In this document: piece after piece, positions 49,330 to 64,000 of the stretch | Layout: each line of letters starts with the position of its first letter | How positions within the stretch are numbered: position 1 is the stretch's first letter | NCBI GenBank assembly: GCA_937864535.1 | Contig: CALMJS010000020.1 | Coordinates: 1 to 64,000 of the forward strand | Length of the DNA stretch: 64,000 nucleotides | Direction of reading: 5' to 3' | Origin: an uncultured Paracoccaceae bacterium | GTDB lineage: Bacteria; Pseudomonadota; Alphaproteobacteria; Rhodobacterales; Rhodobacteraceae | The notes under the pieces: model-generated | Told to the model about the DNA's origin: nothing | Seen by the model: the letters and a program-made list of their open reading frames with translations, nothing else | Database searches by the model: none | Program-made: the position numbers and the translations under genes

Positions 49330-50349
49330 ATGGACGATCTGAAATTCGGCACCCGCGACAAGCGAGGGAATTGGACGCCGAACGATCATTTGGACATTGC
49401 GCCATTTTGGCGGGGCAAATTCAGTGAACTGGGCAAATTTGCCCTCGGCTATGTCTGGCCGTGGAATGCGTTCCACATGGCGACGGCTGTGCTCTATTGG
49501 ATCTTTATCGTTCCGGACATGGAGACGATGAAAACCCTGTCGTGGGGCTGGGCCCTGTGGCTATTCGCGGCCAACGCGGTTGGCGTGTTCCTGTTGTTTG
49601 GCGGCATCGAGTTTTTCTATTACGTCAAACGCAAGCAAGAGACGCGGTTCAAATACAACGGCAAATTCCCGTCGGAGCACCCTTCTGACGTGTTTTGGTT
49701 CAAGAGTCAGAACCTCGACAACTTCCTTCGGACATATATCTTTTCGGTGCCGCTGTGGACCCTTTGGGAGGTCGGTGCGCTCTGGGCCTTTGCCAACGGC
49801 TGGGCGGAATGGCTGAACTGGGAGGACAACTGGCTCTATCTGTCGATGCTGGTCCTGTTGGTGCCGGCGATCCACGAGATCCACTTTTTCGTCATCCATC
49901 GGCTGATCCACACCGGGTTTTTGTACAAATACGTCCATTCGGTGCACCACAATTCGATCAACCCCAGCCCGTGGTCGTCGCTGTCCATGCATCCGGTCGA
50001 AGGCTTTCTCTACTTTAGCGAAATCCTGTGGTTCATGTTGATCCCGACCAACCCGATCGTGATGCTGTTCAACCTGCATTCCACCGGCTTTGGCGCGATC
50101 AACGGTCACATCGGCTTCGACCAGCTGGAACTGACCGAAGAGACCACGATGCCCAGCCACGCCTATGCCCACTATCTGCACCACAAGTACTTCGAGGTGA
50201 ACTACGGCGGCGACGGTCTGATCCCGCTCGATAAGTGGTTTGGCTATTGGCACGACGGCTCGAAAGAGGCCGACGAGCAGATGAAAGAACGTTTCCGCAA
50301 GAAAAAGGCAAAGCTGGCCGCCAAGAAGGCGCCCACGCCTGCGGAATAA
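49330..50349 (+). CDS. Sterol desaturase/fatty acid hydroxylase-family membrane oxygenase
   Basis: A 339-aa membrane di-iron protein of the FA-hydroxylase superfamily. From ATG 49330 (AGGAGGGG upstream) it has several TM segments and three histidine boxes: H190-R-L-I-H194 within HEIHFFVIHRLIH, HSVHH (203-207) and HYLHH (281-285). Such enzymes hydroxylate or desaturate using O2 and an electron donor. It is the first gene of the operon with the ABC importer and a Rieske ferredoxin, so a small polar substrate or a lipid-linked one cannot be separated by sequence alone. Confidence 0.85.
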   Translation: MDDLKFGTRDKRGNWTPNDHLDIAPFWRGKFSELGKFALGYVWPWNAFHMATAVLYWIFIVPDMETMKTLSWGWALWLFAANAVGVFLLFGGIEFFYYVKRKQETRFKYNGKFPSEHPSDVFWFKSQNLDNFLRTYIFSVPLWTLWEVGALWAFANGWAEWLNWEDNWLYLSMLVLLVPAIHEIHFFVIHRLIHTGFLYKYVHSVHHNSINPSPWSSLSMHPVEGFLYFSEILWFMLIPTNPIVMLFNLHSTGFGAINGHIGFDQLELTEETTMPSHAYAHYLHHKYFEVNYGGDGLIPLDKWFGYWHDGSKEADEQMKERFRKKKAKLAAKKAPTPAE

Positions 50350-50357
50350 GGGCTGCC

Positions 50358-50384
50358 TGACCCGCGACCGAGGATCGCGGGTCA
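50358..50384 (+). terminator. Hairpin after the hydroxylase gene
   Basis: A perfect 10-bp stem (TGACCCGCGA with TCGCGGGTCA) closes a 7-nt loop; there is no T run. Probably an attenuator or processing site before the binding-protein gene. Confidence 0.5.
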
Positions 50385-50429
50385 TCAGAAAACCATGCGC
50401 ATGACGCGCAAAAATTGGGAGGAAATCAA

Positions 50430-51398
50430 ATGAAACTGTTCAATATCCTCGCGACCACCGCTCTGGTCGCGGCTATGGGGTCGATGGCTGCTGCCGAAGG
50501 CGCAAACATCTTTGTTATCGGCGGCAAGCCCGACGACCCGTTCTGGTCCCGCGTCAAGATGGGTGCCGAAGACGCAGGCAAAGTCGCCGAAGCCCAGGGT
50601 GGTTCGGTCACCTGGCTTGGCCCGCAGAACTACGACAACCTCGGCCCCGACGCTGCCGAACTGATCCGTCAGGCGATCGATCAGGGTGCAGACGCCATCG
50701 TCGGTCCGGACTGGGTTCCCGAAGCTATGGACCCCGCCTTTGAGGCCGTCGTCGCCGCCGGCATCCCGCTGGTCATCTATAACGCAGGCGGTCTGGATGC
50801 TGCCGACCGTCTGGGCGCGATGAACTACGTCGGTGCCGTTGATTACAAGTCGGGCTATGCCGCTGGTGAATACCTCGCCAACGCTGGCCACAAGAACGGC
50901 GCTTGCGTCAACACCCTGCCGGGTGCTGCCAACATCGAAGCCTTCTGTGCTGGCTTTAACGAAGGCATGACCGCTGCTGGCGGCGCCGGTTCGGTTCTCC
51001 AGCTGCCCGCCACCGCGTTCGGTGATGCGACCGCTGTTGCTCAGGCTGTGCGCGCGCACCTGCTGCAGAACCCGGACATCGACGCGATGTTCGCAATCGG
51101 TGACGCAGACACCAACGCAACCGTTTCGGGCATCCAGCAGGCTGGCAAAACCGGTTCGGTCCACGTGTGCGGCATGAACTTTAACGACTCGATCCTCGCC
51201 AACATTCAGGCGGGTACGCAGGCTTGTGCCATTGACCAGCAGGGCTATCAGCAGGGCTTCTTTGCCGTGTCGATCCTGAACAACTTTGTCAATTACGGCG
51301 CCACCATCCCGACCCGTGAAATCCTGACCGGCCCGGGCGTCATCGATGCCTCCAACGTCGAACTGGTGATCGCTGGCGTTCAGGCTGGCGCTCGCTAA
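50430..51398 (+). CDS. Sugar-type ABC transporter, substrate-binding protein
   Basis: A 322-aa periplasmic binding protein of the ribose/inositol group (Peripla_BP_4). The signal peptide is MKLFNILATTALVAAMGSMA... ending at AAA-E. The mature start has ANIFVIGGKPDDPFWSRVKMGAEDA, the usual KxxDPFW motif. ATG 50430 follows GGGAGGAA; the longer frame from 50415 is less likely. MocB and IbpA are comparable family members. Confidence 0.92.
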   Translation: MKLFNILATTALVAAMGSMAAAEGANIFVIGGKPDDPFWSRVKMGAEDAGKVAEAQGGSVTWLGPQNYDNLGPDAAELIRQAIDQGADAIVGPDWVPEAMDPAFEAVVAAGIPLVIYNAGGLDAADRLGAMNYVGAVDYKSGYAAGEYLANAGHKNGACVNTLPGAANIEAFCAGFNEGMTAAGGAGSVLQLPATAFGDATAVAQAVRAHLLQNPDIDAMFAIGDADTNATVSGIQQAGKTGSVHVCGMNFNDSILANIQAGTQACAIDQQGYQQGFFAVSILNNFVNYGATIPTREILTGPGVIDASNVELVIAGVQAGAR

Positions 51399-51420
51399 TC
51401 GCGACATCCCTGAAATCAAG

Positions 51421-51449
51421 AGGCCGACCGTCACGCACGGTCGGCCTTA
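51421..51449 (+). terminator. Hairpin between binding-protein and permease genes
   Basis: A perfect 11-bp stem (AGGCCGACCGT with ACGGTCGGCCT) closes a CACGC loop, followed by TAT. Typical of operons that make excess binding protein. Confidence 0.75.
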
Positions 51450-51500
51450 TCCGCAAACTCGTAGGGGACGGGTGCGGTCACACACGGACGGATAGACGAT

Positions 51501-52511
51501 ATGCAAACGGCAAGAGGCGAGGCCGGGTTCTCACTCGGTACGCTGATCCGCAGGCCTGAGACCGGGTCGTTGATTGGATTTGTGGCGGTTTACCTTTTCT
51601 TTGCGGCCCTCGGGGGGGCTGTGTTCATTGGCGCGCCCGGTTGGTCGAGCTGGCTGAACATCGCGGCAGAGGTCGGTATCATCGCGCTGCCGGTCGGACT
51701 GTTGATGATTTCGGGCGAATTCGACATGTCGGTCGGGTCTATCGTTCCGGCGTCGTCGATGACGGCGGCGATCCTGTGCGGCTACTTTGGGTTTGCCGCG
51801 CCAGTCGGCATCGTTGCGGCCCTGTGTGTTGGTCTGGCCATTGGCTATGTGAACGGCATTCTGGTCACGCGCACGACCATTCCCTCGTTGATCGTCACCA
51901 TCGGTATGATGTTCGCGGTGATGGGGTTGACGCTGGGTTTTGCTGTGCTGATCAAGGGGTCGACCAGCGTTTCCTATGTCCCCGATCCGCTGACCAAATC
52001 GCTGCTGGGCCATTTCATCAACGGCATGTTCAACGTGTCGATCATCTGGTGGATCGGCTTTGTGGCGGTGTTTTACTTCCTTCTCCACATTTCCCCGCTT
52101 GGAAACTGGATCTATGCGCTGGGCGGTGACCGCGAGAGCGCCCGCAGCGCTGGCATCCCCACGGATAAGTTGACCATCGCGCTGTTCATGCTGTCCGGCT
52201 TTAACGCCGCCTTTGTCGGCGTCGCGCAGGTCATGACCTACCAGAGCGCGCAGGTCGCTGGCGGCCAGTCGTTTATCTTTAACTCGATCATGTGCGTGGT
52301 GATCGGCGGCGTGCTGCTGACCGGCGGTGCAGGCTCGGTGATCGGGATCGTTCTGGGCACCATGACCTTTGCGGTCGTGAACCAGGGCATTTTCTTTGCC
52401 GCGCTCGACCCCAACATCGGGTCGATCATCATCGGTGCGCTGCTGCTGCTGGCTGTTTTGTCGAACGACAAATTCCGCGCGCTCGCCATGTCTTATTCCA
52501 AAAAGAAGTGA
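51501..52511 (+). CDS. Sugar-type ABC transporter, permease (1)
   Basis: A 336-aa BPD_transp_2 (ribose/xylose-type) permease with about eight to ten TM helices. The family signature EFDMSVGSIVPASSMTAAIL and GYVNGILVTRTTIPSLIVTIGM are visible, as is the C-terminal GGVLLTGGAGSVIGIVLG. The 11-nt gap to the second permease contains an AGGGCAGGGAC region. Confidence 0.93.
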   Translation: MQTARGEAGFSLGTLIRRPETGSLIGFVAVYLFFAALGGAVFIGAPGWSSWLNIAAEVGIIALPVGLLMISGEFDMSVGSIVPASSMTAAILCGYFGFAAPVGIVAALCVGLAIGYVNGILVTRTTIPSLIVTIGMMFAVMGLTLGFAVLIKGSTSVSYVPDPLTKSLLGHFINGMFNVSIIWWIGFVAVFYFLLHISPLGNWIYALGGDRESARSAGIPTDKLTIALFMLSGFNAAFVGVAQVMTYQSAQVAGGQSFIFNSIMCVVIGGVLLTGGAGSVIGIVLGTMTFAVVNQGIFFAALDPNIGSIIIGALLLLAVLSNDKFRALAMSYSKKK

Positions 52512-52521
52512 GGGCAGGGAC

Positions 52522-53511
52522 ATGCTAAACAACCTCCTCAGCCGTCCCGCCGCCGCCTCCATCCTGAGCCTGATCGGCGTGCTGGCCTTCTATGTCATCT
52601 TTGGCGGCGTCGATCTGGCCAAGCTGTTCGGCGCAGCGAGCTGGATGAATTACGCCGCCCGTATCGGCATCGTGGCGCTGCCCGTGGGCCTGCTGATGAT
52701 CGCGGGCGAGATCGACATCTCCATCGGGGCGATGATCCCTGCGGGTGCGATGACCACGGCGATTATCTCGGGCTACTATGGTCTGCCGATTGGTTTTGGC
52801 ATTCTGGGTGCGCTGACCGTGGGTGTTCTGGTCGGCCTGTTCAACGGCATTCTGGCGGTGAAAACCAGCGTGCCGACGCTGATCATCACGCTGGGCACGC
52901 TGGTGGGGATGCAGGGGATCGTTCTGGCTGGCTCCAAATTGCTGACCGGGAACGCATCTGTCCCGCTGTCCGCGCCAGACTGGGCCAAGGGGATCTTTGG
53001 CGAATTGATGTTCGGCGGCAATCATCAGAACCTGATCCTCTGGTGGCTGGGTTTGACCGTCGTATTCTGGTTCGTCATGCACCAGAGCAAGTACGGAAAC
53101 TGGATCTATGCCCTTGGCGGCGACAAGGTCAGCGCCCGCAATGCCGGTATCCCCGTTGATGCCATCACGATCCGCCTGTTCGTTCTGACCGCGACATCGG
53201 CGTCTTTTGTCGGGATGTGTCACGCGATGTTGTTCAACTCGGCCCAAGTGTCGGGCGGTATGAGCGACATTTTCAACATCATCGTCAGTGTGGTTGTGGG
53301 CGGGGTGCTATTGACGGGTGGCTTTGGCTCTATCGCTGGGGTTTTCATCGGCACCATCACCTTTGCCATCGTGATCAAGGGTATCGATTTCACCGACATC
53401 GACCGCAACTGGGCGAACCTCATCATCGGTCTGACGCTGCTTCTGGCCGTCGGCATGAACGAGAGCTTCCGCAAATTCGCCATGCGCGCCACCAAACGTA
53501 AACCCGCCTGA
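52522..53511 (+). CDS. Sugar-type ABC transporter, permease (2)
   Basis: A 329-aa paralogue of the first permease, with EIDISIGAMIPAGAMTTAII and GLFNGILAVKTSVPTLIITLGT in matching positions. ATG 52522 is taken as start; the frame is open upstream into the first permease but without need. Two distinct permeases suggest a heterodimeric channel. Confidence 0.93.
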   Translation: MLNNLLSRPAAASILSLIGVLAFYVIFGGVDLAKLFGAASWMNYAARIGIVALPVGLLMIAGEIDISIGAMIPAGAMTTAIISGYYGLPIGFGILGALTVGVLVGLFNGILAVKTSVPTLIITLGTLVGMQGIVLAGSKLLTGNASVPLSAPDWAKGIFGELMFGGNHQNLILWWLGLTVVFWFVMHQSKYGNWIYALGGDKVSARNAGIPVDAITIRLFVLTATSASFVGMCHAMLFNSAQVSGGMSDIFNIIVSVVVGGVLLTGGFGSIAGVFIGTITFAIVIKGIDFTDIDRNWANLIIGLTLLLAVGMNESFRKFAMRATKRKPA

Positions 53512-53529
53512 ACGCGGAAAGGATAGACT

Positions 53530-54318
53530 ATGACCGCTCCGGTTCTTGAACTCCGCAACATCGATAAATCCTTCGGGCCGATCGACGTCCTGCACAACAT
53601 CACTCTTCAGGTCAAAGCGGGCGAAGTGCTCTGCCTCTTGGGCGACAACGGTGCGGGCAAATCGACCCTCATCAAGACGCTCGCCGGTGTGCACCAGCCG
53701 ACGCGCGGCGACATCCTGATGGATGGTCAGCCCGTCCAGTTCAGCGGCCCGCGCGATGCGGCAGGGCGGGGGATTGCCACCGTGCACCAGTTCGGCGGGA
53801 CCTTTCCACTGATGTCGATCGGCCGCTCCTTCTTTGTCGGTGTCGAACCGACCAAAGGCTGGGGCCCGTTCAAGCGGTTCGACCGCAAGACCGCCAACCG
53901 TATCGCCGTCGAGGCCGTGCAGAACTTTGGCATCACCCGTATCGACGATGGCGACCGTCTGGTCGGCGGTCTGTCGGGCGGTGAACGCCAGTCGCTGGCG
54001 ATTGCCCGCGCTGTGCACTTTGGCGCGCGTGTGCTGATCCTGGACGAACCGACCGCTGCGCTCGGCGTCAAACAGGCGGCTCACGTGTTGCGCATCGTCA
54101 ACGAAGCGAAACGTCGTGGGCTGGCCGTGGTGTTCATCACCCATCAGGTCATGCATGCAATGGCCGTCGGCGACCACTTTGCCGTGCTGATCCGCGGCGC
54201 AATCGCGGCAGATTTCCACAAGGGTGAAAAGACCCGTGAAGAAATCAGCGACCTCATGGCTGGCGGCGAATCCATGGCCGACCTCGAAGCCCAGCTCGGC
54301 ACCAACGCCACTGTTTAA
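53530..54318 (+). CDS. Sugar-type ABC transporter, ATP-binding protein
   Basis: A 262-aa single-domain ATPase. Walker A LLGDNGAGKSTLIK, signature LSGGERQSLAIARAV and Walker B VLILDEPTAALG are present. Ribose-type ATPases usually have two fused domains (about 500 aa), so this is the half-length form seen in some inositol or rhizopine systems. It is coupled in one operon with the two permeases. Confidence 0.94.
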   Translation: MTAPVLELRNIDKSFGPIDVLHNITLQVKAGEVLCLLGDNGAGKSTLIKTLAGVHQPTRGDILMDGQPVQFSGPRDAAGRGIATVHQFGGTFPLMSIGRSFFVGVEPTKGWGPFKRFDRKTANRIAVEAVQNFGITRIDDGDRLVGGLSGGERQSLAIARAVHFGARVLILDEPTAALGVKQAAHVLRIVNEAKRRGLAVVFITHQVMHAMAVGDHFAVLIRGAIAADFHKGEKTREEISDLMAGGESMADLEAQLGTNATV

Positions 54319-54331
54319 TTAGGACTAAGAT

Positions 54332-55336
54332 ATGTCACTGCGAATTGCCGTTATCGGCGCAGGTCTGATGGGCGCCGACCACGCCAAAATCGTTGCAAAT
54401 GATCTGCCGGGCGCGACGCTACAGGTCATCTGCGATATGGACACCAACCGCGCCCGCGCGGTGGCCGATGCGACCGGCGCACTGGATGTCGCCAATGATC
54501 CGCAGGCGGTCATCGCCCGCGCCGATATCGACGCCGTGATCGTGGCCAGCCCCGATTTCACCCACGCGCCCTTGTCGCTGGCCTGTATCGCCGCGCAAAA
54601 GCCGGTGATGTGTGAAAAGCCGCTGTCGCAGAAGGTAGAGGAATGCGAACAGGTCATGCAGGCCGAGATCGCATCGGGCCGCAAGTGGGTCCAACTGGGC
54701 TTTATGCGCCGTTACGATCAGGCCTATGTCGAAATGCGCCGCGCGCTGACCGATGGCACTATCGGCCGCGCGCTGATGATGCACAACTTCCACCGCAATG
54801 TGGAAACGCCTGCTTCGGACTTTACCGGCGCGATGGCGATCACCAACTCGGCCCCCCATGAATTCGACGTGATCCGCTATGTGCTGGGCACCGAATTCGC
54901 CAGCATCTCCGCGTGGCAGCCGAAACGCTCGGACGCGGTTGTGGCCCCTGTCGTCATGGTTCTGGAAACCGCCGACGGCCAGATCGTCAACATCGAAGTG
55001 AACAACAACGCCGCCTATGGCTATGACGTTCGCGCCGAACTGGTGGGCGAAAAGGGCGCGATTGCCATGAACAACGTGGCCTATACCCGCACCGACATCA
55101 AACTGGCCAGCTCGACCGCATATGATGCCGATTGGCGCACCCGCTATTACGAGGCCTACCGCCGCCAGAACACCGCGTTCCTCAAGTTCGCCCAGACCGG
55201 CGTGTTCCCGGAAATCGGCTCGTCCGCTTGGGACGGCTACTGCGCGGCTGTGGTCGCCAATACCGGCGCGCGCGCCCTGACCGAGGGCACAAAGCTGCCC
55301 GTTACAATGATGGCCAAACCGGAGTTCTACGCATGA
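54332..55336 (+). CDS. Gfo/Idh/MocA-family oxidoreductase (1)
   Basis: A 334-aa NAD(P)-dependent dehydrogenase. The Rossmann motif GAGLMGADHAKIVAN is at the N-terminus, followed by the EKP motif CEKPLSQKV and the catalytic H/D-containing GAMAITNSAPHEFDVIRYV segment. Most like inositol 2-dehydrogenases (IolG) in layout. The stop overlaps the next gene's start (ATGA). Confidence 0.9.
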   Translation: MSLRIAVIGAGLMGADHAKIVANDLPGATLQVICDMDTNRARAVADATGALDVANDPQAVIARADIDAVIVASPDFTHAPLSLACIAAQKPVMCEKPLSQKVEECEQVMQAEIASGRKWVQLGFMRRYDQAYVEMRRALTDGTIGRALMMHNFHRNVETPASDFTGAMAITNSAPHEFDVIRYVLGTEFASISAWQPKRSDAVVAPVVMVLETADGQIVNIEVNNNAAYGYDVRAELVGEKGAIAMNNVAYTRTDIKLASSTAYDADWRTRYYEAYRRQNTAFLKFAQTGVFPEIGSSAWDGYCAAVVANTGARALTEGTKLPVTMMAKPEFYA

Positions 55337-56292
55337 AACTGGGATTTGTTTCCGACAGCCTTGGCGGTATGTCGTTTGAAGACGTGCTGAACCACGCCCA
55401 GCGGATGGGCGTATCGGGCATCGAAGTGAACACCTGTGGCTGGTCCACCGCGCCGCATTTCGACCTCAAGGGGATGCTGGGCAATGCCAAGGCGCAGCGT
55501 GATTTCAAGGATGCGTTCATCGACCGCGGTCTGGAGATCATCAGCCTGAACGCCAACGGCAACCCGCTGCACCCGACCGATCCGGCGCAGGGCGAAGGCC
55601 TCAAGAACACCATCCGCGTCGCGGGCGAAATGGGGATCAAAACCGTTTGCACTATGTCCGGTCTGCCCGCAGGGTCGGCCAACGACCTGATGCCGAACTG
55701 GGTCGTGTCGTCGTGGCCGCCGGAAACGCAGGAAATCCTGCGCTATCAGTGGCAGGAAAAGCTGATCCCGTTCTGGACCGAGATTGTCGCGCTGGCCAAG
55801 GAATGCGGCGTTGAAAAGATCGCGCTGGAACTGCACGGCAACCAGTGCGTCTATAACGTCCCGTCGCTGTTCAAACTGCGCGAAGCGGTCGGTCCGGTTA
55901 TCGGTGCCAACCTTGATCCCAGCCACCTGTTCTGGATGGGTGCCGATCCCCTGATCGCCGCCGAGGCGCTGGGCAAGGCTGTCTACCACGTCCACGCCAA
56001 GGATACCTTCCTGAACGCGCCCAAGCAGGCCACCACCAGCCTTCTGGAAAACGGCAGCCTGATGGATATCTCGTCGCGCAGCTGGTCCTACATCACGCTT
56101 GGTTTCGGCCACGGCGAAGAGTGGTGGCGCCAGTTCTGCGACCGCCTGAAGATGGGCGGCTACGATGGCTGGCTGTCGATCGAACACGAGGACGTGCTGC
56201 TGAACTCGCTGGAAGGGCTGGAGAAATCCGTGACCCTGCTGCAGGGCGTGATGCCTTCGGCTCCGGCTGACTACAAACCCCAAGACATCTAA
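55333..56292 (+). CDS. TIM-barrel sugar isomerase/epimerase (IolE/MocC-like)
   Basis: A 319-aa AP-endonuclease-2 fold protein. Metal-ligand positions are visible as ALELHG (Glu), NLDPSH (Asp), HVHAKD (His) and SIEHED (Glu). Members include inosose dehydratase IolE and MocC, which act just after the inositol dehydrogenase step. ATG 55333 overlaps the preceding stop. The substrate is inferred from context only. Confidence 0.85.
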   Translation: MKLGFVSDSLGGMSFEDVLNHAQRMGVSGIEVNTCGWSTAPHFDLKGMLGNAKAQRDFKDAFIDRGLEIISLNANGNPLHPTDPAQGEGLKNTIRVAGEMGIKTVCTMSGLPAGSANDLMPNWVVSSWPPETQEILRYQWQEKLIPFWTEIVALAKECGVEKIALELHGNQCVYNVPSLFKLREAVGPVIGANLDPSHLFWMGADPLIAAEALGKAVYHVHAKDTFLNAPKQATTSLLENGSLMDISSRSWSYITLGFGHGEEWWRQFCDRLKMGGYDGWLSIEHEDVLLNSLEGLEKSVTLLQGVMPSAPADYKPQDI

Positions 56293-56303
56293 GAGGCCCC
56301 AGA

Positions 56304-56615
56304 ATGGCACAGTGGATTGATGCCTGCGCGGCAGACGACATCGACGAAGAAGACGTGATCCGTTTCGACCACAACGGTCGGACCTTTGCGATCATCCGCG
56401 ATCACGAAGACAACTACTACTGCACCGACGGTCTGTGCACCCACGAAGACGTGCACCTGTCGGACGGTATGGTTGTCGAAGCCACCATCGAATGTCCCAA
56501 GCATTCGTCGATCTTCAACTGCAAGAACGGCGAAGTGGAAACTCCGCCCGCTTGCGAGAACCTGCACACCTACGCCGTCAAGGTCGAAGGTGGTCGCGTT
56601 CTGATCGAGATCTGA
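56304..56615 (+). CDS. Rieske-type 2Fe-2S ferredoxin (MocE-like, 1)
   Basis: A 103-aa Rieske ferredoxin with ligands CTH (C48-T-H) and CPKH, i.e. the C-X-H ... C-X2-H pattern. It is about 64% identical by hand count (65 of 101 aligned) to the second copy at 63503. In rhizobia MocE passes electrons to the MocD oxygenase in rhizopine breakdown. Here it could serve the hydroxylase at 49330 or the downstream desaturase. Confidence 0.9.
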   Translation: MAQWIDACAADDIDEEDVIRFDHNGRTFAIIRDHEDNYYCTDGLCTHEDVHLSDGMVVEATIECPKHSSIFNCKNGEVETPPACENLHTYAVKVEGGRVLIEI

Positions 56616-56617
56616 GA

Positions 56618-57403
56618 ATGGCCTTCACCTTCCCCCTTGCTGCCTGCGCTGAAATGCTCTGGCAGGACCGACCCATCGAATGGCGGGCTGCCCGCCTGAC
56701 CGAGATGGGTTTCGGCGTTGGCCTGTGGAACTGGCCGAACCACGACCTCGATAAACTCGAAAAGGTCGGGGCGCATTACACGATCATGAACGGCTATCTG
56801 GTCGGGCGTCTGTCCGACAAGGAAGGCGCGGATATGCTGCTGGCCTCGGCCCGCGAAACCGCGCTGGTCGGCAAACGTCTGGGCGTGGATCGTCTGAACC
56901 TGCACGGCACGGGGCTGGGCGACTTCGGTCTGCCGATCCCGCAGCTCTCGGCCTTCGCGCCGGGGATGGAGCTGCGCGCCCGCGACACGCTCCATCGCAT
57001 CTGTGACATGGCCGAGGAACTGGGCGTGGTCTTTACGCTTGAGAACCTCAACCCCGTCGATCACCCGGGCTGTCCGTTCGGATCGACTGCTGACGTTCTG
57101 TCGCTGGTGTCTGCGGTGAACCGTCCGCAGCTGCGCATCAATCTGGATTTGTACCACACCCAGATCGGCGAAGGGGACGTGATCCGCTGGGCCGAAGCCT
57201 GCATGCCGTGGGTCGGTGAATATCAGGTTGCCGACAATCCGGGCCGGTTCGAGCCGGGTACGGGCGAGATGCATTACCCCAACATCGCCCGCGCCATCTA
57301 CGACATGGGCTATCGCGGCCCCGTCGGTATGGAAGCCTTTGCCAAAGGCGACCCCGAGGCCGCTCTGGCCGCTTTCCGCAACGCATTTACGATCGAGGTC
57401 TGA
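56618..57403 (+). CDS. TIM-barrel isomerase (hydroxypyruvate isomerase-like)
   Basis: A 261-aa sugar isomerase of the AP-endonuclease-2 superfamily. Ligand-bearing segments are FTLENLN (Glu), INLDLYHTQ (Asp/His), YQVADNPGR (the HVAD-type position, here Q-V-A-D) and MEAFAKG (Glu). The GNPHxP region of Hyi is matched by NPGRFEPGTGEMHYPNI. It is three bases after the Rieske stop. The open frame extends upstream, but this ATG fits the family. Confidence 0.85.
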   Translation: MAFTFPLAACAEMLWQDRPIEWRAARLTEMGFGVGLWNWPNHDLDKLEKVGAHYTIMNGYLVGRLSDKEGADMLLASARETALVGKRLGVDRLNLHGTGLGDFGLPIPQLSAFAPGMELRARDTLHRICDMAEELGVVFTLENLNPVDHPGCPFGSTADVLSLVSAVNRPQLRINLDLYHTQIGEGDVIRWAEACMPWVGEYQVADNPGRFEPGTGEMHYPNIARAIYDMGYRGPVGMEAFAKGDPEAALAAFRNAFTIEV

Positions 57404-57406
57404 CCC

Positions 57407-58228
57407 ATGGGTATGTACCACAACCGTCCGCACGTCGAAGACCTGCGCAAGATGAAAAAGAATGGAGAGAAGATCTCCATGCTCTACGTCACCACGCTGG
57501 AAGAGGCCGCCGCTGCCGCTGCTGCCGGCATCCACATGCTGTCGATCGAAGGCCGGTTCTTTGACAACGATATGCGCGAAGCTGCCGGTGACTGTTTTGT
57601 TCAGGTCGGCCTGCCGTTCGGCGGCTGGGGCAGCTTTAACGGTCGCCCGCTCGCCACTGCCGAAGATTACCTGCGCGCCGCGTTCCATTACGCCGCGATG
57701 GGGGGCGATGCCTACTACTGCTCGGCCTCCTATGACATCCAGAAGGTCCTTTGCGATAACTACCTGCCGGTCATCGGCCACATTGGCCTGATCCCGTCCT
57801 ACATCACCTGGACCGGCTGGCGCGCCGTCGGCAAGACCGCAAACGAGGCCGAGGCCCTGTGGCGTCACACCCAGATGCTCGAACAGATCGGCGTCTTCGG
57901 TGCCGAGCTTGAAGTCGTGCCGGATCGCGTCGCCAAGTACCTGACCGAGAATTCGTCCCTGCTGATGCTGGGTATGGGCGCTGGCAAATACGCCGATGCG
58001 CAGTACCTCTTTACCGAGGACGTCTGCGGCTATGGCGTGAACCACAAGCCACGCCACGGCAAGGTCTACGCCGACATGGGCCCCAAGATGAAGGCCCTGC
58101 AGGAAGAGCGTATCGCCGCGTTCAAGGCGTTCCGCGCCGATGTGGACAACGGCGGATATCCGGCAGCCGAACATTCGGTCGCCATCAAGGATGACGAATA
58201 CGAAGCCTTCCTCAAGGCGGTGCAGTAA
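57407..58228 (+). CDS. Divergent PanB-like protein (ketopantoate hydroxymethyltransferase family)
   Basis: A 273-aa protein clearly related to PanB by the GHIGLIPSYITWTGW, LEVVP, LGMGAGKYADAQYLFTEDVCG and YPAAEHS segments. The catalytic Glu in LEVVP is kept. The Mg2+ and substrate positions of E. coli PanB are changed by eye: D45 to Glu, D84 to Gly, K112 to Tyr and E114 to Ser. It is therefore unlikely to be an ordinary PanB. It lies inside the catabolic operon between the isomerase and dehydrogenases. Starts 4 nt after the isomerase. Confidence 0.75.
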   Translation: MGMYHNRPHVEDLRKMKKNGEKISMLYVTTLEEAAAAAAAGIHMLSIEGRFFDNDMREAAGDCFVQVGLPFGGWGSFNGRPLATAEDYLRAAFHYAAMGGDAYYCSASYDIQKVLCDNYLPVIGHIGLIPSYITWTGWRAVGKTANEAEALWRHTQMLEQIGVFGAELEVVPDRVAKYLTENSSLLMLGMGAGKYADAQYLFTEDVCGYGVNHKPRHGKVYADMGPKMKALQEERIAAFKAFRADVDNGGYPAAEHSVAIKDDEYEAFLKAVQ

Positions 58229-59256
58229 TGTTGCGGGTGGGGGTTGTCGGTTACGGTACAGGTGGTCAGCATTTCCACACGCCGTTCATCGCGGCGGCGG
58301 AAGGCTGCGCATTGGCGGGCATTGTTGCCCGTGCTCCTGAAACCATCGCAAAGGTGCGCGCGGGCTGGCCGGATGTGCCGGTTTTCGCGAGCCTGACCGA
58401 TATGATCGCCGCAGGTGTCTGCGATGCCGTTACGGTGACAACCCCGCCGCAAACCCGTCGCGCCCTCGTCCTCGAGGCGATCGAGGCGGGCCTGCATGTG
58501 ATTGCCGATAAACCCTTCGCGCCCGATTATCAGGGCGCGATGGACCTCGATGCCGCGGCCAAGGCCAAGGGCGTCACGCTGTGCGTCTACCAGAACCGCC
58601 GTTTCGACGCGGATTTGCAGACCCTGCGCAAGCTGGTGCTGGACGACCGTCTGGGCACTGTCTGGAGCCTGCATTCCCGCATGGACCAGAACGGCGCGCA
58701 TACGTTGGAACCCGGCCCCACCGGTGGCCTGCTGCGCGATCTGGGCAGCCACGTTGTGGACCAGATGATCTATGTCCTTGGCCCTGTGGCGGCTGTCGAT
58801 TGCCAGATGGACTATGTCGATTTGCCCGAGGGTCAGACCGACTGTGCGTTCAACATCACGCTGCGGCATGAGAACGGCGCGCACAGCCATCTGTCGGCCA
58901 GCAAGCTGAACTACAACGACCAGCGCGAGTTGCGTGTCTACGGGTCCAAGGGGTTCTACCAGTCGATGACCTCGGACATTCAGGCGCAGGATATCTTTGC
59001 GGGCAAGCGTCCGGTGGATGATCTGGGCGCGTGGGGCTACGAGCCCGAAACCTGCTGGGGCACCCTGAAAACCGCCGCTGGGACCGAGGTGATCCCGTCC
59101 GAACAGGGCCGCTATCACGACTACTACGCCGCCTTTGCCCGCGCGATTGCCGACGGCACGCCGCCGCCGGTGACGGCCGCGCAGGCCGCAAAAACCATCG
59201 CCGTTCTGGATGCTGCACGAACCAGCGCCAGCACGGGAAAAACCGTTATTCTCTAA
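58228..59256 (+). CDS. Gfo/Idh/MocA-family oxidoreductase (2)
   Basis: A 342-aa dehydrogenase with GVVGYGTGGQHFHTPFIAA, ADKPFAPDYQGAMDL (the EKP position is DKP) and GGLLRDLGSHVVDQMIYVLG. It is less like IolG than the other two and resembles YdgJ/YhhX-type members with GGQ instead of GxMG. Start overlaps the PanB-like stop by one base. Confidence 0.88.
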   Translation: MLRVGVVGYGTGGQHFHTPFIAAAEGCALAGIVARAPETIAKVRAGWPDVPVFASLTDMIAAGVCDAVTVTTPPQTRRALVLEAIEAGLHVIADKPFAPDYQGAMDLDAAAKAKGVTLCVYQNRRFDADLQTLRKLVLDDRLGTVWSLHSRMDQNGAHTLEPGPTGGLLRDLGSHVVDQMIYVLGPVAAVDCQMDYVDLPEGQTDCAFNITLRHENGAHSHLSASKLNYNDQRELRVYGSKGFYQSMTSDIQAQDIFAGKRPVDDLGAWGYEPETCWGTLKTAAGTEVIPSEQGRYHDYYAAFARAIADGTPPPVTAAQAAKTIAVLDAARTSASTGKTVIL

Positions 59257-59274
59257 CCCCTAAGGAAAAGCATT

Positions 59275-60264
59275 ATGCTCAGAGTGGGTCTTCTTGGCGC
59301 GGGCCGCATTGCCGGTGTCCACGCAACCGCCATCTCGTCGAACCCCGGTTCTACCCTCGTCGCCGTGTCGGACAAGTTCCCCGAAGCCGCAGCCAAGCTG
59401 GCCGCGCAATATGGCTGCGAAGCCCGCGACACCGATGCGATCCTGAACGACCCGACCATTGACGCCGTTCTGATTGCCACCTCTACCGACACCCACTCGG
59501 ACCTGATCGAGCGCGCTACCGCTGCCGGTAAATCTGTGCTCTGTGAAAAGCCTGTGGATCTGTCGCTGGAACGCGCCCGCGTGTGCCAAAAGAATGCCGC
59601 GGGCAAGACGGTGATGATCGGTTTCAACCGTCGTTTCGACCCGAACTTTGGCGCGCTCAAGGCCGCCGTCGACGCGGGCGAGATTGGCAAGCCCGAGCTG
59701 CTGTCGATCACCTCGTTCGATCCGGCCCCGCCGCCGGTCGCCTATATCAAGGTCTCGGGCGGGTTGTTCCGGGACATGATGATCCACGATTTCGACATGG
59801 CCAACTTTATCATGGGCGAGGCTCCGGTTTCCGTCTATGCCGCTGGTTCGTCGATTGTTGACCCGGAAATTGGGGCTGCTGGCGATGTGGATACGGCGAT
59901 CGTCACGCTGACCTACGCCGATGGCCGCGTTGCAGTGATCAAGAACTCGCGCCGTGCTGTTTACGGCTATGACCAGCGTGTCGAACTGCTGGGGTCGACC
60001 GGTCTGTTACAGGCCCAGAACATGCTGGAAAACACCGTGGTCAAATCGACCACCGCTGGCGTGACCGGAGCCAAGCCGACCTACTTCTTCCTCGAACGCT
60101 ACATGCCGGCCTATGCCGCTGAATGGGCAGCCTTTGTCAATGCCGTCAACGGTGGCACCGCGCTGCCGGTGACGCTGGATGACGGCGTCGCCGCGCTGGC
60201 GATGGCAGAGGCCGCGACGCGGTCCGCCAAAGAGGGGCGACCGATCCTCTTGTCAGAGGTCTGA
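59275..60264 (+). CDS. Gfo/Idh/MocA-family oxidoreductase (3), inositol-dehydrogenase-like
   Basis: A 329-aa dehydrogenase with GLLGAGRIAGVHATAISSN, CEKPVDLSLERARVC and the catalytic HDFDMANFIMGE. These match bacterial myo-/scyllo-inositol 2-dehydrogenases (IolG). Last gene of the 49330 operon before a hairpin. The three dehydrogenases probably act on successive or stereoisomeric intermediates (inference). Confidence 0.9.
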   Translation: MLRVGLLGAGRIAGVHATAISSNPGSTLVAVSDKFPEAAAKLAAQYGCEARDTDAILNDPTIDAVLIATSTDTHSDLIERATAAGKSVLCEKPVDLSLERARVCQKNAAGKTVMIGFNRRFDPNFGALKAAVDAGEIGKPELLSITSFDPAPPPVAYIKVSGGLFRDMMIHDFDMANFIMGEAPVSVYAAGSSIVDPEIGAAGDVDTAIVTLTYADGRVAVIKNSRRAVYGYDQRVELLGSTGLLQAQNMLENTVVKSTTAGVTGAKPTYFFLERYMPAYAAEWAAFVNAVNGGTALPVTLDDGVAALAMAEAATRSAKEGRPILLSEV

Positions 60265-60272
60265 TACCCAGG

Positions 60273-60297
60273 ACGGGCGCCTTCGGGCGCCCGTTTC
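60273..60297 (+). terminator. Hairpin after the third dehydrogenase
   Basis: A perfect 9-bp stem (ACGGGCGCC with GGCGCCCGT) closes a TTCG tetraloop, followed by TTCG without a T run. Marks the end of the main operon. Confidence 0.7.
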
Positions 60298-60340
60298 GCG
60301 TCATGGCTTGACCAACCGGGGCAAAATCCCCTTGATGCGA

Positions 60341-60350
60341 TGGTATACCA
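60341..60350. promoter_or_regulatory. TGGTATACCA palindrome upstream of the SDR gene
   Basis: A perfect 10-bp palindrome, 16 nt before the SDR start. This core is typical of GntR/FadR-subfamily regulators such as the UxuR/ExuR type, which control sugar-acid genes. No GntR-family gene is in the window, so the regulator would be encoded elsewhere. Confidence 0.5.
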
Positions 60351-60365
60351 AAGTGGAGGGGCGAG

Positions 60366-61178
60366 ATGAATCGCATCGACGGAAAAATTGCAGTCATCAC
60401 CGGCGCGACCCAGGGGCTGGGTGCCGCTATCGCCCGTCAGTTCGCCGCCGCAGGGGCCGCCGGTTTGGTTCTGGTCGGGCGTGATCTGGCCAAGGGGCAG
60501 GCGGTCGCCGACAGCATCACAGCCGACACCGGCGTTCCGGTCCATGTGATCGCCGCGGATCTGGCCGATATCGACGCCGTGCGCGGTATCATCGCCCGCG
60601 CAGATGCCGAGTTTGGCCGTGTCGATGTTCTGGTGAACTCGGCCGGGTTTACCGATCGCGGCACCATCCTCAACACCACGCCCGAGTTTTTTGATAAAAT
60701 GATGGCGGTGAACGTGCGTGCGCCGTTTTTCCTGATCCAGGACGCGGCCAAGGTTATGATCCGCCAAGGCATCGAGGGCCGGATCATCAATATCGGCTCT
60801 ATGTCGTCGCTGGCCGGGCAGCCGTTTCTGACGCCCTATTCCACGTCCAAGGGGGCGCTGGCGACCCTGACCCGCAATACCGCCTACGCGCTGATGCGCA
60901 ACCGCATCCACGTCAATCAGCTGGACATTGGCTGGATGAATTCGGACCACGAACGGCGGTTGATCGCCTCGGAAACCGGTGATCCGACCTTTATTGACCG
61001 CGCGGCGGCGGCCAAGCCCTTTGGCCGGATTCTGGACCCTGTCGAGGTCGCCAAGGCGGTCCTTTGGATGGCCTCGGACGACAACGGTATGATGACCGGT
61101 GCAGTGATCCCGTTCGATCAGTCGGTGTTCGGCGGGTATGAATCCGCGCCTGTTCCCGAAACCGCGTTCGAGGTCTAG
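60366..61178 (+). CDS. SDR-family oxidoreductase
   Basis: A 270-aa short-chain dehydrogenase. The cofactor motif is GATQGLGAAIARQF, the active-site Ser is in NIGSMSSLAG and the YXXXK is YSTSK. The short 3-oxoacyl-reductase-like length and the sugar context fit an alcohol/ketone step on a polyol. ATG 60366 follows GGAGGGG. Ends in a convergent hairpin with LacI 2. Confidence 0.92.
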   Translation: MNRIDGKIAVITGATQGLGAAIARQFAAAGAAGLVLVGRDLAKGQAVADSITADTGVPVHVIAADLADIDAVRGIIARADAEFGRVDVLVNSAGFTDRGTILNTTPEFFDKMMAVNVRAPFFLIQDAAKVMIRQGIEGRIINIGSMSSLAGQPFLTPYSTSKGALATLTRNTAYALMRNRIHVNQLDIGWMNSDHERRLIASETGDPTFIDRAAAAKPFGRILDPVEVAKAVLWMASDDNGMMTGAVIPFDQSVFGGYESAPVPETAFEV

Positions 61179-61207
61179 CCTGTCGTCGCGATGAGCTACC
61201 CACCCGT

Positions 61208-61238
61208 CACGGCCTGGTGTCATGGCCACCGGGCCGTG
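61208..61238. terminator. Bidirectional terminator between SDR and LacI 2
   Basis: A 12-bp stem (CACGGCCTGGTG with CACCGGGCCGTG, one G-U) closes a 7-nt loop. It lies between convergent genes and has no T runs. Confidence 0.65.
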
Positions 61239-61243
61239 TGATG

Positions 61244-62275
61244 TCATACGGATTCCGGCAGGTATAGTCGCGGTTCTAGGAAATGTTGGCCGCCCGACAG
61301 GGTCGGGTCGTGTTGCACGGCCCGGATCATCGTTTCGATCAGGTCGCGGCAGAGTTCCCGTAGCGGCGTCGAAATCACCATCGTGACATACCCGTCGGCC
61401 AGGGCAGCGCGGCGATCATCGGTCATTTCATTGGCGATCAGGCTGATTTTTCCCGGCGGACGGCGTTCGCGCACGGCGGAAATCGCGCCTTCGACGCCGC
61501 CGCCGGCGACATAGATTCCCCGCAAATCCGTATGCCGATCCAGCAGGTCGAGGGTCGCCTCGTAGGTGACCTGCCGCGTGTCGAGGTTCACAAAGGTATC
61601 CAGCACCTCGAACTGGGGTGCATGTTCGCGCAGATAACTGACAAATCCGGTCTCGCGCAGGACATGGCCGTGCCAGCGGCTGCCGCCAACGAAAATCGCG
61701 ACCTTGCCGGGGTGGCGGACCTCTTTGGCAATCATCCATGCGGCGATGCGGCCGACCTTGATATTGTCCATGCCGTAATAGCTATGCCGCACATTCTGGG
61801 CGATATCGTTCAGCAGGGCAAAAAACGGCGTGCCGTCGCGCGCAAGGTCCGAGACGACCTGGGTCACGCTCTGATGGTTGACGGCGGCACTGCCGACGGC
61901 ATGGCTGCGGCGGGCGACCTCGCGGATCGCGGTGCCAAAGTCTTCGGGGGTCGTCGCGGGGACAAAACGGATCAGCGCGGTGCCACGAATGTCGCGCCGT
62001 TCGGCCACCGCCGCCGTCAAAGCCTGGGCGAAGTTCTGATAGAAACTCTGGCGCTCTTTGGACAGGACAAAGCCAAAGGTCATCGCGGGCAGCCCTGCGT
62101 CGATCCGGGCGCGGATCAGGCCGCGGGCGTGATATCCCAGCCTCTCGGCCGCGTCGGCGACGCGCTGGGCGGTGGCGGGTTTGACGGTGGCCCGACCGTT
62201 CAGAACGCGGTCCACGGTGGCGACGCCCACGCCAGCCTCTGCGGCGATGTCGGTCAGGGTCGGGCGTTTTGCCAT
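61244..62275 (-). CDS. LacI-family transcriptional regulator (2)
   Basis: A 343-aa repressor-type protein with the HTH PTLTDIAAEAGVGVATVDRV and hinge LNGRATVKPATAQRV, and a sugar-binding-protein-like core. It is divergent from the MocD-like operon at 62402, with a clear inverted repeat in the gap. It is a distant paralogue of LacI 1 in this window. Confidence 0.92.
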   Translation of the reverse strand: MAKRPTLTDIAAEAGVGVATVDRVLNGRATVKPATAQRVADAAERLGYHARGLIRARIDAGLPAMTFGFVLSKERQSFYQNFAQALTAAVAERRDIRGTALIRFVPATTPEDFGTAIREVARRSHAVGSAAVNHQSVTQVVSDLARDGTPFFALLNDIAQNVRHSYYGMDNIKVGRIAAWMIAKEVRHPGKVAIFVGGSRWHGHVLRETGFVSYLREHAPQFEVLDTFVNLDTRQVTYEATLDLLDRHTDLRGIYVAGGGVEGAISAVRERRPPGKISLIANEMTDDRRAALADGYVTMVISTPLRELCRDLIETMIRAVQHDPTLSGGQHFLEPRLYLPESV

Positions 62276-62284
62276 GATAATATC

Positions 62285-62322
62285 CTATCAAATGTTGCCC
62301 GAATTTTGATAGATTCTGATAG
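62285..62322. promoter_or_regulatory. Candidate operator for LacI 2
   Basis: CTATCAAA (62285-62292) and TTTGATAG (62305-62312) form perfect 8-bp arms 12 nt apart. A third half-site TCTGATAG follows at 62315-62322. It lies within the first 50 bp upstream of lacI 2, a usual autoregulatory position. Confidence 0.6.
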
Positions 62323-62401
62323 AAATGCAAGCCCCCTGACTCGGCCCTCTGTCGGCGTGCCGCTACAGTCGCCGCTATCCGTTCATCCGAGGGAGTGCAG
62401 C

Positions 62402-63478
62402 ATGGGCAAGCGTGATTATTCGATGTTGGGGGCAGATGCCAAACGGGCGGTCGAAACCGGCCTTGCCGCGGCCGAGTGGTATCACACCGACATCCCGCGC
62501 AAGGAAATGAAGGAACTGATGCAGCGCGCCGATGGTCCGGCCATCCGCGATACCGTCATCCTCTTTGGCGCAATGGCGGTCTTTGCCGGACTCGGGATTG
62601 CTCTGTGGCCGACCGTTTGGTCGGTGCCGTTCTGGCTGGCCTATGGTGTGCTCTATGGGTCGGCGATGGACAGCCGCTGGCACGAATGTTCGCACGGCAC
62701 CGCGTTCAAGACACGCTGGATGAATGATGTTATCTATCAGATCGCTTCATTCTGTATGATCAGAAATCCGCATACGTGGCGTTGGAGCCATGCGCGGCAC
62801 CACACGGATACAGTCATCGTCGGGCGGGACCCTGAAATTGCGGTGATGCGGCCCGTTGTCTTTGCAAAGGTCGTCCTTAACCTTTTCGGGGTGCTGGACA
62901 CCATCGACGGTGTGACCCGAATGGTCAAGAATGCCCTTGGTCAGGTCGGCGCAGAAGAAGCCACCTGGATTCCGGTGTCTGAACAGCCCAAAGTTATTCG
63001 GGTCGCCCGGATCTGGGTTCTGATCTATGCTGCAACCGCCGCTGTCGCCGTCTATACGCAATCGATCCTGCCGTTCATGGTGATCGGATTGCCGCGCCTC
63101 TATGGTGCATGGCATATGGTCATGTGTGGTCTTTTGCAGCACTGCGGGTTGGCGGATAACGTCACTGACCACCGTTTGAACAGCCGCACCGTCTATATGA
63201 ACCCGATCAGCCGGTTCATTTACTGGAACATGAATTACCATGTTGAACACCACATGTTCCCGATGATCCCATACCACCAACTGCCCAAGGCGCATGAGCG
63301 TTTCAAACACGATTTGCCTGCGCCGAGCCTGTCTATTGCAGCGGGCTATGCAGAGATCCTGCCCGCTATGTGGCGGCAAATGAAGAACGAAGACTATTTC
63401 CTGCGCCGGGACCTGCCCGCAACGGCCAAGCCCTACCGCGAGGAATTTCACACTGCCGCCATGCCTGCGGCCGAATAA
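62402..63478 (+). CDS. MocD-like membrane di-iron oxygenase/desaturase
   Basis: A 358-aa membrane fatty-acid-desaturase-superfamily protein. From ATG 62402 (GAGGGAG upstream) it has histidine boxes HECSH (94-98), HARHH (130-134) and, near the C-terminus, HVEHH in NMNYHVEHHMF. MocD of rhizobia is of this kind and, with MocE and MocF, removes the O-methyl group of rhizopine. The frame is open far upstream but over LacI 2 on the other strand. It is followed by a Rieske ferredoxin and a reductase. Confidence 0.85.
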   Translation: MGKRDYSMLGADAKRAVETGLAAAEWYHTDIPRKEMKELMQRADGPAIRDTVILFGAMAVFAGLGIALWPTVWSVPFWLAYGVLYGSAMDSRWHECSHGTAFKTRWMNDVIYQIASFCMIRNPHTWRWSHARHHTDTVIVGRDPEIAVMRPVVFAKVVLNLFGVLDTIDGVTRMVKNALGQVGAEEATWIPVSEQPKVIRVARIWVLIYAATAAVAVYTQSILPFMVIGLPRLYGAWHMVMCGLLQHCGLADNVTDHRLNSRTVYMNPISRFIYWNMNYHVEHHMFPMIPYHQLPKAHERFKHDLPAPSLSIAAGYAEILPAMWRQMKNEDYFLRRDLPATAKPYREEFHTAAMPAAE

Positions 63479-63502
63479 CTGACCAACAAAGAGGAAGTGA
63501 CC

Positions 63503-63811
63503 ATGCCTTGGGTAGATGCCTGCGGAACCGATGATATCGACGCCGAAGACCTGATCCGTTTCGATCACGGGGGTCGGACCTATGCGATCTATCGCTCTTC
63601 GGACGACGACTACTTCTGTACGGATGGCAAATGCACCCATGAGGACGTCCACCTGGAGGACGGTCTGGTCATGGCGTACGAAATCGAGTGCCCCAAACAC
63701 AACGCGACCTTTGATTATCGCACCGGAGAGGCGCTGCGCGCGCCGGCATGCGTCAACCTGAACACCTACAAGGTCAAGGTCGAGGCGGGTCGGGTTCTGA
63801 TCGAGATCTGA
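63503..63811 (+). CDS. Rieske-type 2Fe-2S ferredoxin (MocE-like, 2)
   Basis: A 102-aa protein with CTHEDVHL and CPKHNATF ligands, directly after the MocD-like gene and before the reductase gene. ATG 63503, seven bases after GAGGA, is preferred to the GTG at 63497. About 64% identical by hand count to the first copy. Confidence 0.92.
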   Translation: MPWVDACGTDDIDAEDLIRFDHGGRTYAIYRSSDDDYFCTDGKCTHEDVHLEDGLVMAYEIECPKHNATFDYRTGEALRAPACVNLNTYKVKVEAGRVLIEI

Positions 63812-63812
63812 G

Positions 63813-64000
63813 ATGGCCGGGATCGTCATTGTCGGCGCTGGCGAATGCGGCACCCGCGCGGCCTTTGCGGCGCGGGATGCTGGCTATGATGGCGCGATCT
63901 TGCTGATCGCGGGCGAAGCCGGTCTGCCCTATGATCGCACCAAGCTGACAAAACCGATTGTGCCGGGCGAGGCCCCTTTTGGCGGCCTGTCCGCGCTGCG
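63813..64000 (+). CDS. FAD-dependent ferredoxin reductase (MocF-like), 5' part
   Basis: Only 62 codons are in the window. The start MAGIVIVGAGECGTRAAFAA is the FAD-binding Rossmann motif, followed by GLPYDRTKLTKPIV, a segment shared by BphA4-type NAD(P)H:ferredoxin reductases. It follows the Rieske stop by one base. Position makes it the electron source for MocE/MocD. Truncated by the window edge. Confidence 0.8.
   Translation, partial: MAGIVIVGAGECGTRAAFAARDAGYDGAILLIAGEAGLPYDRTKLTKPIVPGEAPFGGLSAL

Follow-up and report, generated by a model that had tools for sequence, protein, structure and literature searches.

The closest described counterparts of the system treated here are MocDEF, known from the moc loci for rhizopine in Sinorhizobium meliloti L5-30 and Rhizobium leguminosarum (Bahar et al. 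1998, according to the accessible text of PMC10107442 and PMC5789663), and PanB (ketopantoate hydroxymethyltransferase), for which methylene-tetrahydrofolate is the hydroxymethyl donor and which also uses a metal (PMC7770189). A dicamba demethylase that depends on tetrahydrofolate (THF) is the subject of a further report, likewise accessible in part (PMC9404685). In this article we analysed a stretch of 64,000 nucleotides from an uncultured Paracoccaceae bacterium (assembly GCA_937864535.1; bases 1-64000 of the 211,662-base contig CALMJS010000020.1), called the window throughout, together with the sequence beyond position 64000, and focused on a putative catabolic locus in which two arms with different membrane oxygenases, arm 1 (49330-61178) and arm 2 (from 62402), each carry a gene for a PanB-like protein.

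The pairing of PanB-like genes with MocDEF-like arms is the new point of this study; the linkage is well supported, the mechanism weakly. Gene content, families, linkage, recurrence and the loss of PanB-specific residues were established directly by the tools. We propose, with our judgement evenly balanced between acceptance and doubt, that the locus serves the catabolism of O-methylated cyclitols (pinitol or kin) by two separately regulated oxidative demethylase arms, and that the PanB-like protein moves the one-carbon (C1) unit to THF. More tentatively, and with doubt somewhat outweighing confidence, the PanB-like family may be a new enzyme: a dedicated THF-dependent acceptor of the formaldehyde-level C1 unit that membrane di-iron demethylases release. 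It would be a fourth component of MocDEF-type systems, the rhizopine loci included, that has so far been overlooked, and it would have uses beyond inositols.

The likeness to MocDEF is closest in arm 2, where a desaturase-type oxygenase, a MocE ferredoxin and a ferredoxin reductase stand in one unit and an inositol pathway would follow downstream; moreover, in Rhizobium lentis a locus whose MocR is recognised by the curated rhizopine model has a PanB-like gene next to its MocDEF-like genes as well. The window differs in having two arms, the first with an oxygenase of fatty-acid hydroxylase (FA-hydroxylase) type, in having LacI regulators and not MocR, and in a binding protein that stays below the rhizopine cut-off, and a PanB-like partner is not mentioned for MocDEF in the accessible text of PMC10107442 and PMC5789663. 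With PanB (PF02548, TIGR00222) the PanB-like proteins share the fold and the sequence family, but they fall below both NCBIfam cut-offs, the positions that we take to be ligands are not conserved, and the genome has a separate true PanB. O-demethylases of the LigM/DesA type, which are also THF-dependent, transfer the methyl group directly and use no oxygen; their methyl carbon is delivered to THF, formate being a likely end product, and the same would hold for the proposed pathway, which differs in that it would oxidise the methyl group first.

The oxygenase arms and their PanB-like genes

Arm 1 begins with the FA-hydroxylase-type oxygenase (49330..50349, plus strand; PF04116 61.6 bits, cut-off 31) and arm 2 with a MocD-like oxygenase of fatty-acid desaturase type (62402..63478, plus strand; PF00487 121.9 bits). 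The histidine boxes of the two show no variation among 32 and 23 aligned sequences, respectively, the window's own included, and by these boxes both are predicted membrane di-iron oxygenases. Each arm has its own MocE-family Rieske ferredoxin (56304..56615, TIGR02377 153.9; 63503..63811, TIGR02377 170.7; cut-off 136.15, both plus strand), and the two are 65% identical to each other. In arm 2 the oxygenase, MocE and a MocF-like ferredoxin reductase (63813..65036, plus strand; PF07992, PF14759) form a single unit (62402-65036) with the gene content of MocDEF, whereas in arm 1 the oxygenase is of the other type and a reductase gene is lacking. The PanB-like genes lie at 57407..58228 in arm 1 (plus strand; PF02548 118.1 bits) and, past the end of the window, at 65064..65864 in arm 2 (plus strand; PF02548 130.2 bits).

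An earlier reading of the window, made from the sequence only, had named both oxygenases, the two MocE ferredoxins, a ribose-type importer and a short-chain dehydrogenase/reductase (SDR), all of which are borne out by the family models; the reductase, of which it saw the start, runs across position 64000 and is complete on the contig. It had also placed each oxygenase in an operon with its own ferredoxin. In arm 1 both genes do belong to the same run of 13 genes, but they are not adjacent, six genes standing between them. The PanB-like gene of each arm, the two divergent LacI regulators and the SLAC1-type channel after arm 2 were missing from that reading.

The gene context supports the arms well as demethylase units, and by analogy with MocDEF the reaction would be a demethylation. 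The genome has a second FA-hydroxylase-type oxygenase (G000:C19:151210-152223, 55% identical), which stands with a sugar-binding protein, an ATPase and LacI; this is the third membrane oxygenase locus of the kind in the genome, and its 20-kb stretch has no PanB-like gene.

Recurrence of the pairing in other genomes

Named genomes were scanned with an alignment of the PanB-like proteins, and the best 80 of at least 534 confirmed matches, that is the closest relatives, were annotated with profiles built from the window locus and from annotated relatives. The 55 loci with at least 8 kb on each side served as the full-flank set. Either type of oxygenase was present in 53 of these 55 loci, MocE in 53 and an oxygenase together with MocE in 52; the FA-hydroxylase type was found in 51, the desaturase type in 7 and the reductase in 17. 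The two loci without an oxygenase are L064 and L117, and in L064 the retrieved stretch begins about 3 kb after an FA-hydroxylase gene. The surroundings recurred as well: an ATPase in 53 loci, a sugar-binding protein in 50, a Hyi-like protein in 49, LacI in 48 and IolG in 33.

The pairing is also seen in an even sample of the family, 198 genomes with 77 PanB-like places in 50 of them (the window's own included, three fragment rows excluded): 24 of the 77 have an FA-hydroxylase-type gene no more than 12 kb away, where chance would give about 0.8 if genomes of 4 Mb are assumed. Retrieval of 36 such places from other genomes, 14 of them picked for their FA-hydroxylase-type neighbour, gave an oxygenase in 34, MocE in 23, iol genes in 7 and PurU in 1; a desaturase was present in 20 of the 22 places that had not been picked in this way. 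The sequence-only reading would have been given up had the oxygenase homologues never been linked to inositol genes or had the FA-hydroxylase clustered with lipid genes in relatives. The IolG and iol counts above contradict the former, and no lipid genes were seen among the recurrent neighbours, which were judged by reading and not by a search.

Distant PanB-like/FA-hydroxylase pairs of about 30% identity occur among loci L149-L155. The neighbours of some include a GbcA-like Rieske oxygenase, a BetA-like dehydrogenase and a trimethylamine-methyltransferase-like protein, all three below the model cut-offs, and aldehyde dehydrogenases (by reading). These pairs perhaps perform N-demethylation, and they hint that PanB-like proteins may generally be partners of membrane enzymes that oxidise methyl groups. 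On rhizobial plasmids of R. johnstonii and R. etli (L044, L189) a desaturase-MocE-reductase-PanB-like unit has cobalamin genes on one side and nadABC on the other, and the annotation shows no sugar importer next to it. Plasmid p42e of R. etli CFN 42 carries a unit of this composition.

How the PanB-like proteins differ from PanB

The two PanB-like proteins, which are 59% identical to each other, are by their scores and residues no PanBs. Both fail TIGR00222 (81.5 for arm 1 and 98.8 for arm 2, cut-off 207.55) and PRK00311 (108 and 117.6, cut-off 272), while the true PanB of the genome (G000:C26) is above both cut-offs with 312.2 and 362 and adjoins a gene that is PanC-like by reading. A spare pantothenate gene was considered and rejected, given this true PanB beside its PanC-like gene and PanB-like copies that travel with oxygenases.

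Asp45, Asp84, Lys112 and Glu114 (E. coli PanB numbering) are presumably the metal and keto-acid ligands of PanB. The residues at these positions were found replaced in the PanB-like proteins by a profile and by pairwise alignments to solved PanBs, in which the N-terminal part is weak and Lys112 and Glu114 are placed differently by the two methods, neither of which finds them. The PanB-like proteins retain the residues at the positions of His136 and Glu181. They have an invariant set of their own, which across 28 and 30 aligned sequences includes Arg57, Asp101, His125, Glu167, Glu169, Asp205, His217 and Arg235. The first 28 Foldseek matches of an AlphaFold2 model with a mean predicted local distance difference test (pLDDT) score of 89.9 were PanB chains (best E 4.3e-17, template-modelling score 0.67), followed by methylisocitrate lyases and a phosphonomutase.

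Plasmid records matching the arm 1 protein numbered 634, of which 293 matched over at least 80% of it, and true PanBs make up part of these records. No account of PanB-like genes in moc or inositol demethylation was found in the open literature among the matches listed, and a co-mention of rhizopine and hydroxymethyltransferase concerns, in the accessible text, serine hydroxymethyltransferase.

Proposed pathway and fate of the C1 unit

In each arm electrons would pass from NADH through a ferredoxin reductase and the MocE ferredoxin to the membrane di-iron oxygenase, which would hydroxylate the O-methyl group; the resulting hemiacetal would break down into the free cyclitol and a C1 unit at the level of formaldehyde. 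The most hypothetical step concerns THF: the PanB-like protein would transfer the C1 unit to it, and the methylene-THF so formed may be converted to formate by FolD and, in some species, by a neighbouring PurU. The cyclitol would be a substrate for oxidation by IolG and the remaining dehydrogenases and would then enter the iol pathway, whose genes lie elsewhere in the genome.

The neighbourhood of the PanB-like genes is consistent with such a fate of the carbon. Of the 55 full-flank loci, 12 have PurU, a formyl-THF deformylase, near the PanB-like gene and 6 have FolD; a looser cut-off raises these counts to 15 and 7. At the density of PurU in the family (63 copies in 198 genomes; in the class 92 in 385) about 0.1 would be expected in 55 stretches of 20 kb as against the 12 observed, but most PurU-bearing PanB-like loci belong to Rhizobiaceae and this expectation uses the family background and not that of Rhizobiaceae. 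The link between PurU and the PanB-like gene is a minority trait. In an arm 1-like locus of Neotabrizicola shimadae the genes for MocE, a TIM barrel, a reductase and the PanB-like protein, folD, purU and iolG are consecutive. In the genome of the window PurU stands alone on contig C14, and an equivalog of FrmA is encoded on C30 (598.7, cut-off 543.95).

A profile search for FrmA gave nothing above the cut-off in the 55 full-flank PanB-like loci, and in two FA-hydroxylase/MocE loci without a PanB-like gene the last gene of the run encodes hydroxymethyl-glutathione dehydrogenase. Strict mutual exclusion of the PanB-like gene and FrmA was considered and is unsupported as a rule, FrmA being present in only some of the loci free of the PanB-like gene. 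The SLAC1-type anion channel (65930-66895, on the contig past the window, L005:2931-3896; PF03595 175.5) is encoded directly after the PanB-like gene of arm 2 and might let formate out; a one-sequence profile found such a channel in none of the 80 relative loci.

Several observations weigh against the proposed pathway. Neither the window locus nor 43 of the 55 full-flank loci has a clear PurU, and in the even samples PurU lies within 10 kb in only 3 of about 99 PanB-like places (G034, G161, G314). Close FA-hydroxylase loci without a PanB-like gene exist (20 stretches chosen for that, some of which end at contig ends), and therefore this gene may not be needed for the oxygenase chemistry as such. 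FrmA does not simply take its place there: it was found in 2 of 8 plasmid loci without a PanB-like gene, the other six having neither, and above the cut-off in none of the 20 family stretches chosen for the absent PanB-like gene. The contexts of the distant pairs are not those of inositol catabolism. The superpositions on PanB have a large root-mean-square deviation, 5.5 to 15.5 A and mostly 13-15 A, and if the metal and keto-acid ligands are lost, the chemistry of PanB would not be simply transferable. The structure model of the FA-hydroxylase-type protein (mean pLDDT 84) gave no meaningful match to the PDB or to a solved fold in a fold search.

If the proposal is true, many genes annotated as belonging to vitamin B5 synthesis would belong to demethylation and one-carbon metabolism. 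To our knowledge there is no dedicated enzyme for loading formaldehyde onto THF, and a candidate for this step makes the question directly testable. The pathway may also matter in the rhizosphere, because pinitol had the highest concentration among the compounds tabulated for Mimosa root exudate (145 uM in exudate-treated medium, in the accessible part of PMC5789663).

Candidate substrates

O-methylated cyclitols would fit as the substrate class, with methyl ethers of inositols as suitable members and pinitol, a plant compound, as a plausible one. Only one of the three Gfo/Idh/MocA proteins of arm 1 passes the IolG model (59275..60264, plus strand; TIGR04380 422.6, cut-off 355) and by this model it is certainly IolG, inositol 2-dehydrogenase. 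Gfo A (54332..55336, plus strand) leans to the D-chiro-inositol dehydrogenases, its best model being that of a bifunctional inositol / D-chiro-inositol dehydrogenase (NF052679 271.6, cut-off 540), and Gfo B (58228..59256, plus strand; PF01408 82.7) fails the IolG model like Gfo A. The further degradation could be served by an iolG-iolC-iolD-iolE set on C13 of the same genome, and a second iolD is present on C19. On a Marivivens plasmid the order LacI-desaturase-MocE-PanB-like is followed by LacI, a TIM barrel and an importer and then by iolG-iolC-iolD-iolE.

Rhizopine itself is an unlikely substrate. The ribose-type substrate-binding protein (50415..51398, plus strand) has the rhizopine-binding model as its best NCBIfam match and reaches 154.7 against a cut-off of 420 (NF052284), and a MocR profile recognised no MocR in the window locus, where the regulators are LacI proteins. 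The sequence-only interpretation gained support in part, through the linkage to inositol genes and the recurrence of two oxygenases in one locus; it missed the PanB-like genes.

MocR-bearing loci do have the PanB-like gene. On a plasmid of Rhizobium lentis (L128) a MocR with 740.1 against the NCBI rhizopine cut-off of 650 is followed by desaturase, MocE, reductase, PanB-like and PurU genes; this PurU passes its model (333.1, cut-off 285.95), but the periplasmic binding protein beside MocR, with a score of 38.4, stays far below the 420 required by the rhizopine model. A second such locus on a plasmid of R. leguminosarum RCAM2802 (L188) has the same order, and from these two loci it follows that mocDEF is succeeded by the PanB-like gene where MocR is present. 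MocR, the PanB-like protein and PurU of L188 are each read in two frames, either broken genes or sequencing errors.

Control and pairing of the two arms

Each arm of the window has its own LacI-family regulator divergent from its oxygenase gene: 48140..49168 for arm 1 (minus strand; PF00356 44.9 bits, PF13407) and 61244..62275 for arm 2 (minus strand; PF00356 51.2). Between the arm 2 regulator and oxygenase lies an operator-like perfect inverted repeat with 8-nt arms and a spacing of 12 nt (62285..62312), and a similar, longer-armed repeat has the same place in Marivivens (L127). This palindrome was not found in the promoter of arm 1, which has only a different 6-nt repeat, and in a search for conserved operators over the oxygenase promoters only the repeat of arm 2 and Marivivens stood out.

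Two oxygenases in one locus are not a peculiarity of the window, since they occur in 8 of the 80 relative loci (L048, L055, L059, L063, L080, L084, L085, L113), five of which have both types. L049 became a ninth after a search of its contig outside the stretch, which showed both types on one strand at a distance of about 8 kb, and L149, L156 and L157 of the family sample are further cases; L156, like the window, has two arms that each include a MocE and a PanB-like gene. L048, L055 and L063 combine both types, a single ferredoxin and a single PanB-like gene in one co-directional run.

On a tree of 130 PanB-like rows the type of the partner oxygenase is strongly clustered (none of 500 shuffles was as low). 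Two switches of partner type suffice for the 74 fully flanked rows that have only one type, L049 excluded, and therefore each PanB-like lineage keeps its oxygenase type; the two PanB-like proteins of the window fall in different groups. The first count had been 6 switches, which falls to 2 with full flanks and without L049. We also withdrew the idea that the desaturase replaces the FA-hydroxylase in otherwise alike operons, as the L049 contig has an FA-hydroxylase gene 1.8 kb before the stretch; for this reason successive action of the two oxygenases on one substrate was judged slightly more probable than at first.

Weighing of the alternatives

Two arms might, as the sequence-only reading had put it, remove two substituents in turn or deal with two related substrates, and the latter is somewhat likelier, since the arms have separate LacI regulators and inspection of the arm 1 promoter did not reveal the palindrome of arm 2. 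This argument is not strong, and it is weakened by L048, L049, L055 and L063, where both types are co-directional and one ferredoxin was seen. Nevertheless the window probably holds two independently controlled arms for related substrates. That two substituents of one substrate are removed one after the other, or that one oxygenase demethylates and the other hydroxylates or deaminates, we consider rather unlikely: such a sequence would suit the window oxygenases, 12 kb apart on one strand, the runs with both types and the nearly stable partner type on the tree, but against it stand the separate regulators, the palindrome not found in the arm 1 promoter and the many loci that have a desaturase-type unit and no FA-hydroxylase gene in the retrieved stretch. 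Unlikely too, and marginally more so, is that the PanB-like protein is a carbon-carbon lyase or aldolase acting on a ring-derived keto intermediate and not on the methyl carbon, with the formaldehyde left to housekeeping glutathione-dependent oxidation. The lyases and the phosphonomutase next in the fold search, the FrmA equivalog of the genome and the oxygenase loci without a PanB-like gene could be explained in this way; against it, PanB-like genes accompany oxygenases even where the sugar importer is missing or the neighbours are different, THF genes directly follow them in two annotated loci, and the metal ligands of PanB appear lost.

An ordinary catabolic locus for rhizopine (O-methyl-scyllo-inosamine) would have MocDEF-like genes, Gfo proteins, an IolE-like protein and a binding protein with a rhizopine model as its best match, as the window has. 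We rejected it on the curated cut-offs, since the score of the binding protein is far from the cut-off, MocR was not recognised and the regulators are of LacI type, and regard it as very improbable. The family names FA_hydroxylase and FA_desaturase could suggest genes of lipid or sterol modification that came near sugar genes by chance; across genera, however, the neighbours of the PanB-like genes are the sugar-binding protein and MocE at the high counts given above, and this explanation, the least probable of all, was rejected on the sugar genes around.

Other genes of the locus

The 13 genes of 49330-61178 are all on one strand with intergenic gaps of at most 102 bases, in the order FA-hydroxylase-type oxygenase, sugar-binding protein, two permeases, ATPase, Gfo A, IolE-like, MocE, Hyi-like, PanB-like, Gfo B, IolG and SDR. 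The ATP-binding cassette (ABC) importer consists, besides the binding protein, of permeases at 51501..52511 and 52522..53511 (PF02653 both) and an ATPase at 53530..54318 (PF00005), all on the plus strand. The sequence-only claim of three Gfo/Idh/MocA dehydrogenases with IolE-like and Hyi-like isomerases stands for the three Gfo proteins, one of them a clear IolG. The two putative isomerases are TIM barrels below the curated cut-offs: the IolE-like protein (55333..56292, plus strand; PF01261 95.8) has 26.9 against 290 (TIGR04379) and the Hyi-like one (56618..57403, plus strand) 99.3 against 353.45 (TIGR03234). The SDR dehydrogenase (60366..61178, plus strand; PF13561 165.7) scores 376 against a cut-off of 240 (NF004847).

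The second unit, from 62402, comprises desaturase, MocE ferredoxin, ferredoxin reductase, PanB-like protein and SLAC1-type channel. Past the channel are IclR and GntR regulators and then an apparently separate catabolic cluster (L005:5558-15156) with a DUF3500 protein and an aldehyde dehydrogenase by Pfam and, by reading, an FAH-type hydrolase, an aldolase and a dioxygenase. On the other side, directly before the locus, ATP-synthase-like genes occupy the minus strand at 43922-47899, as judged from their translations.

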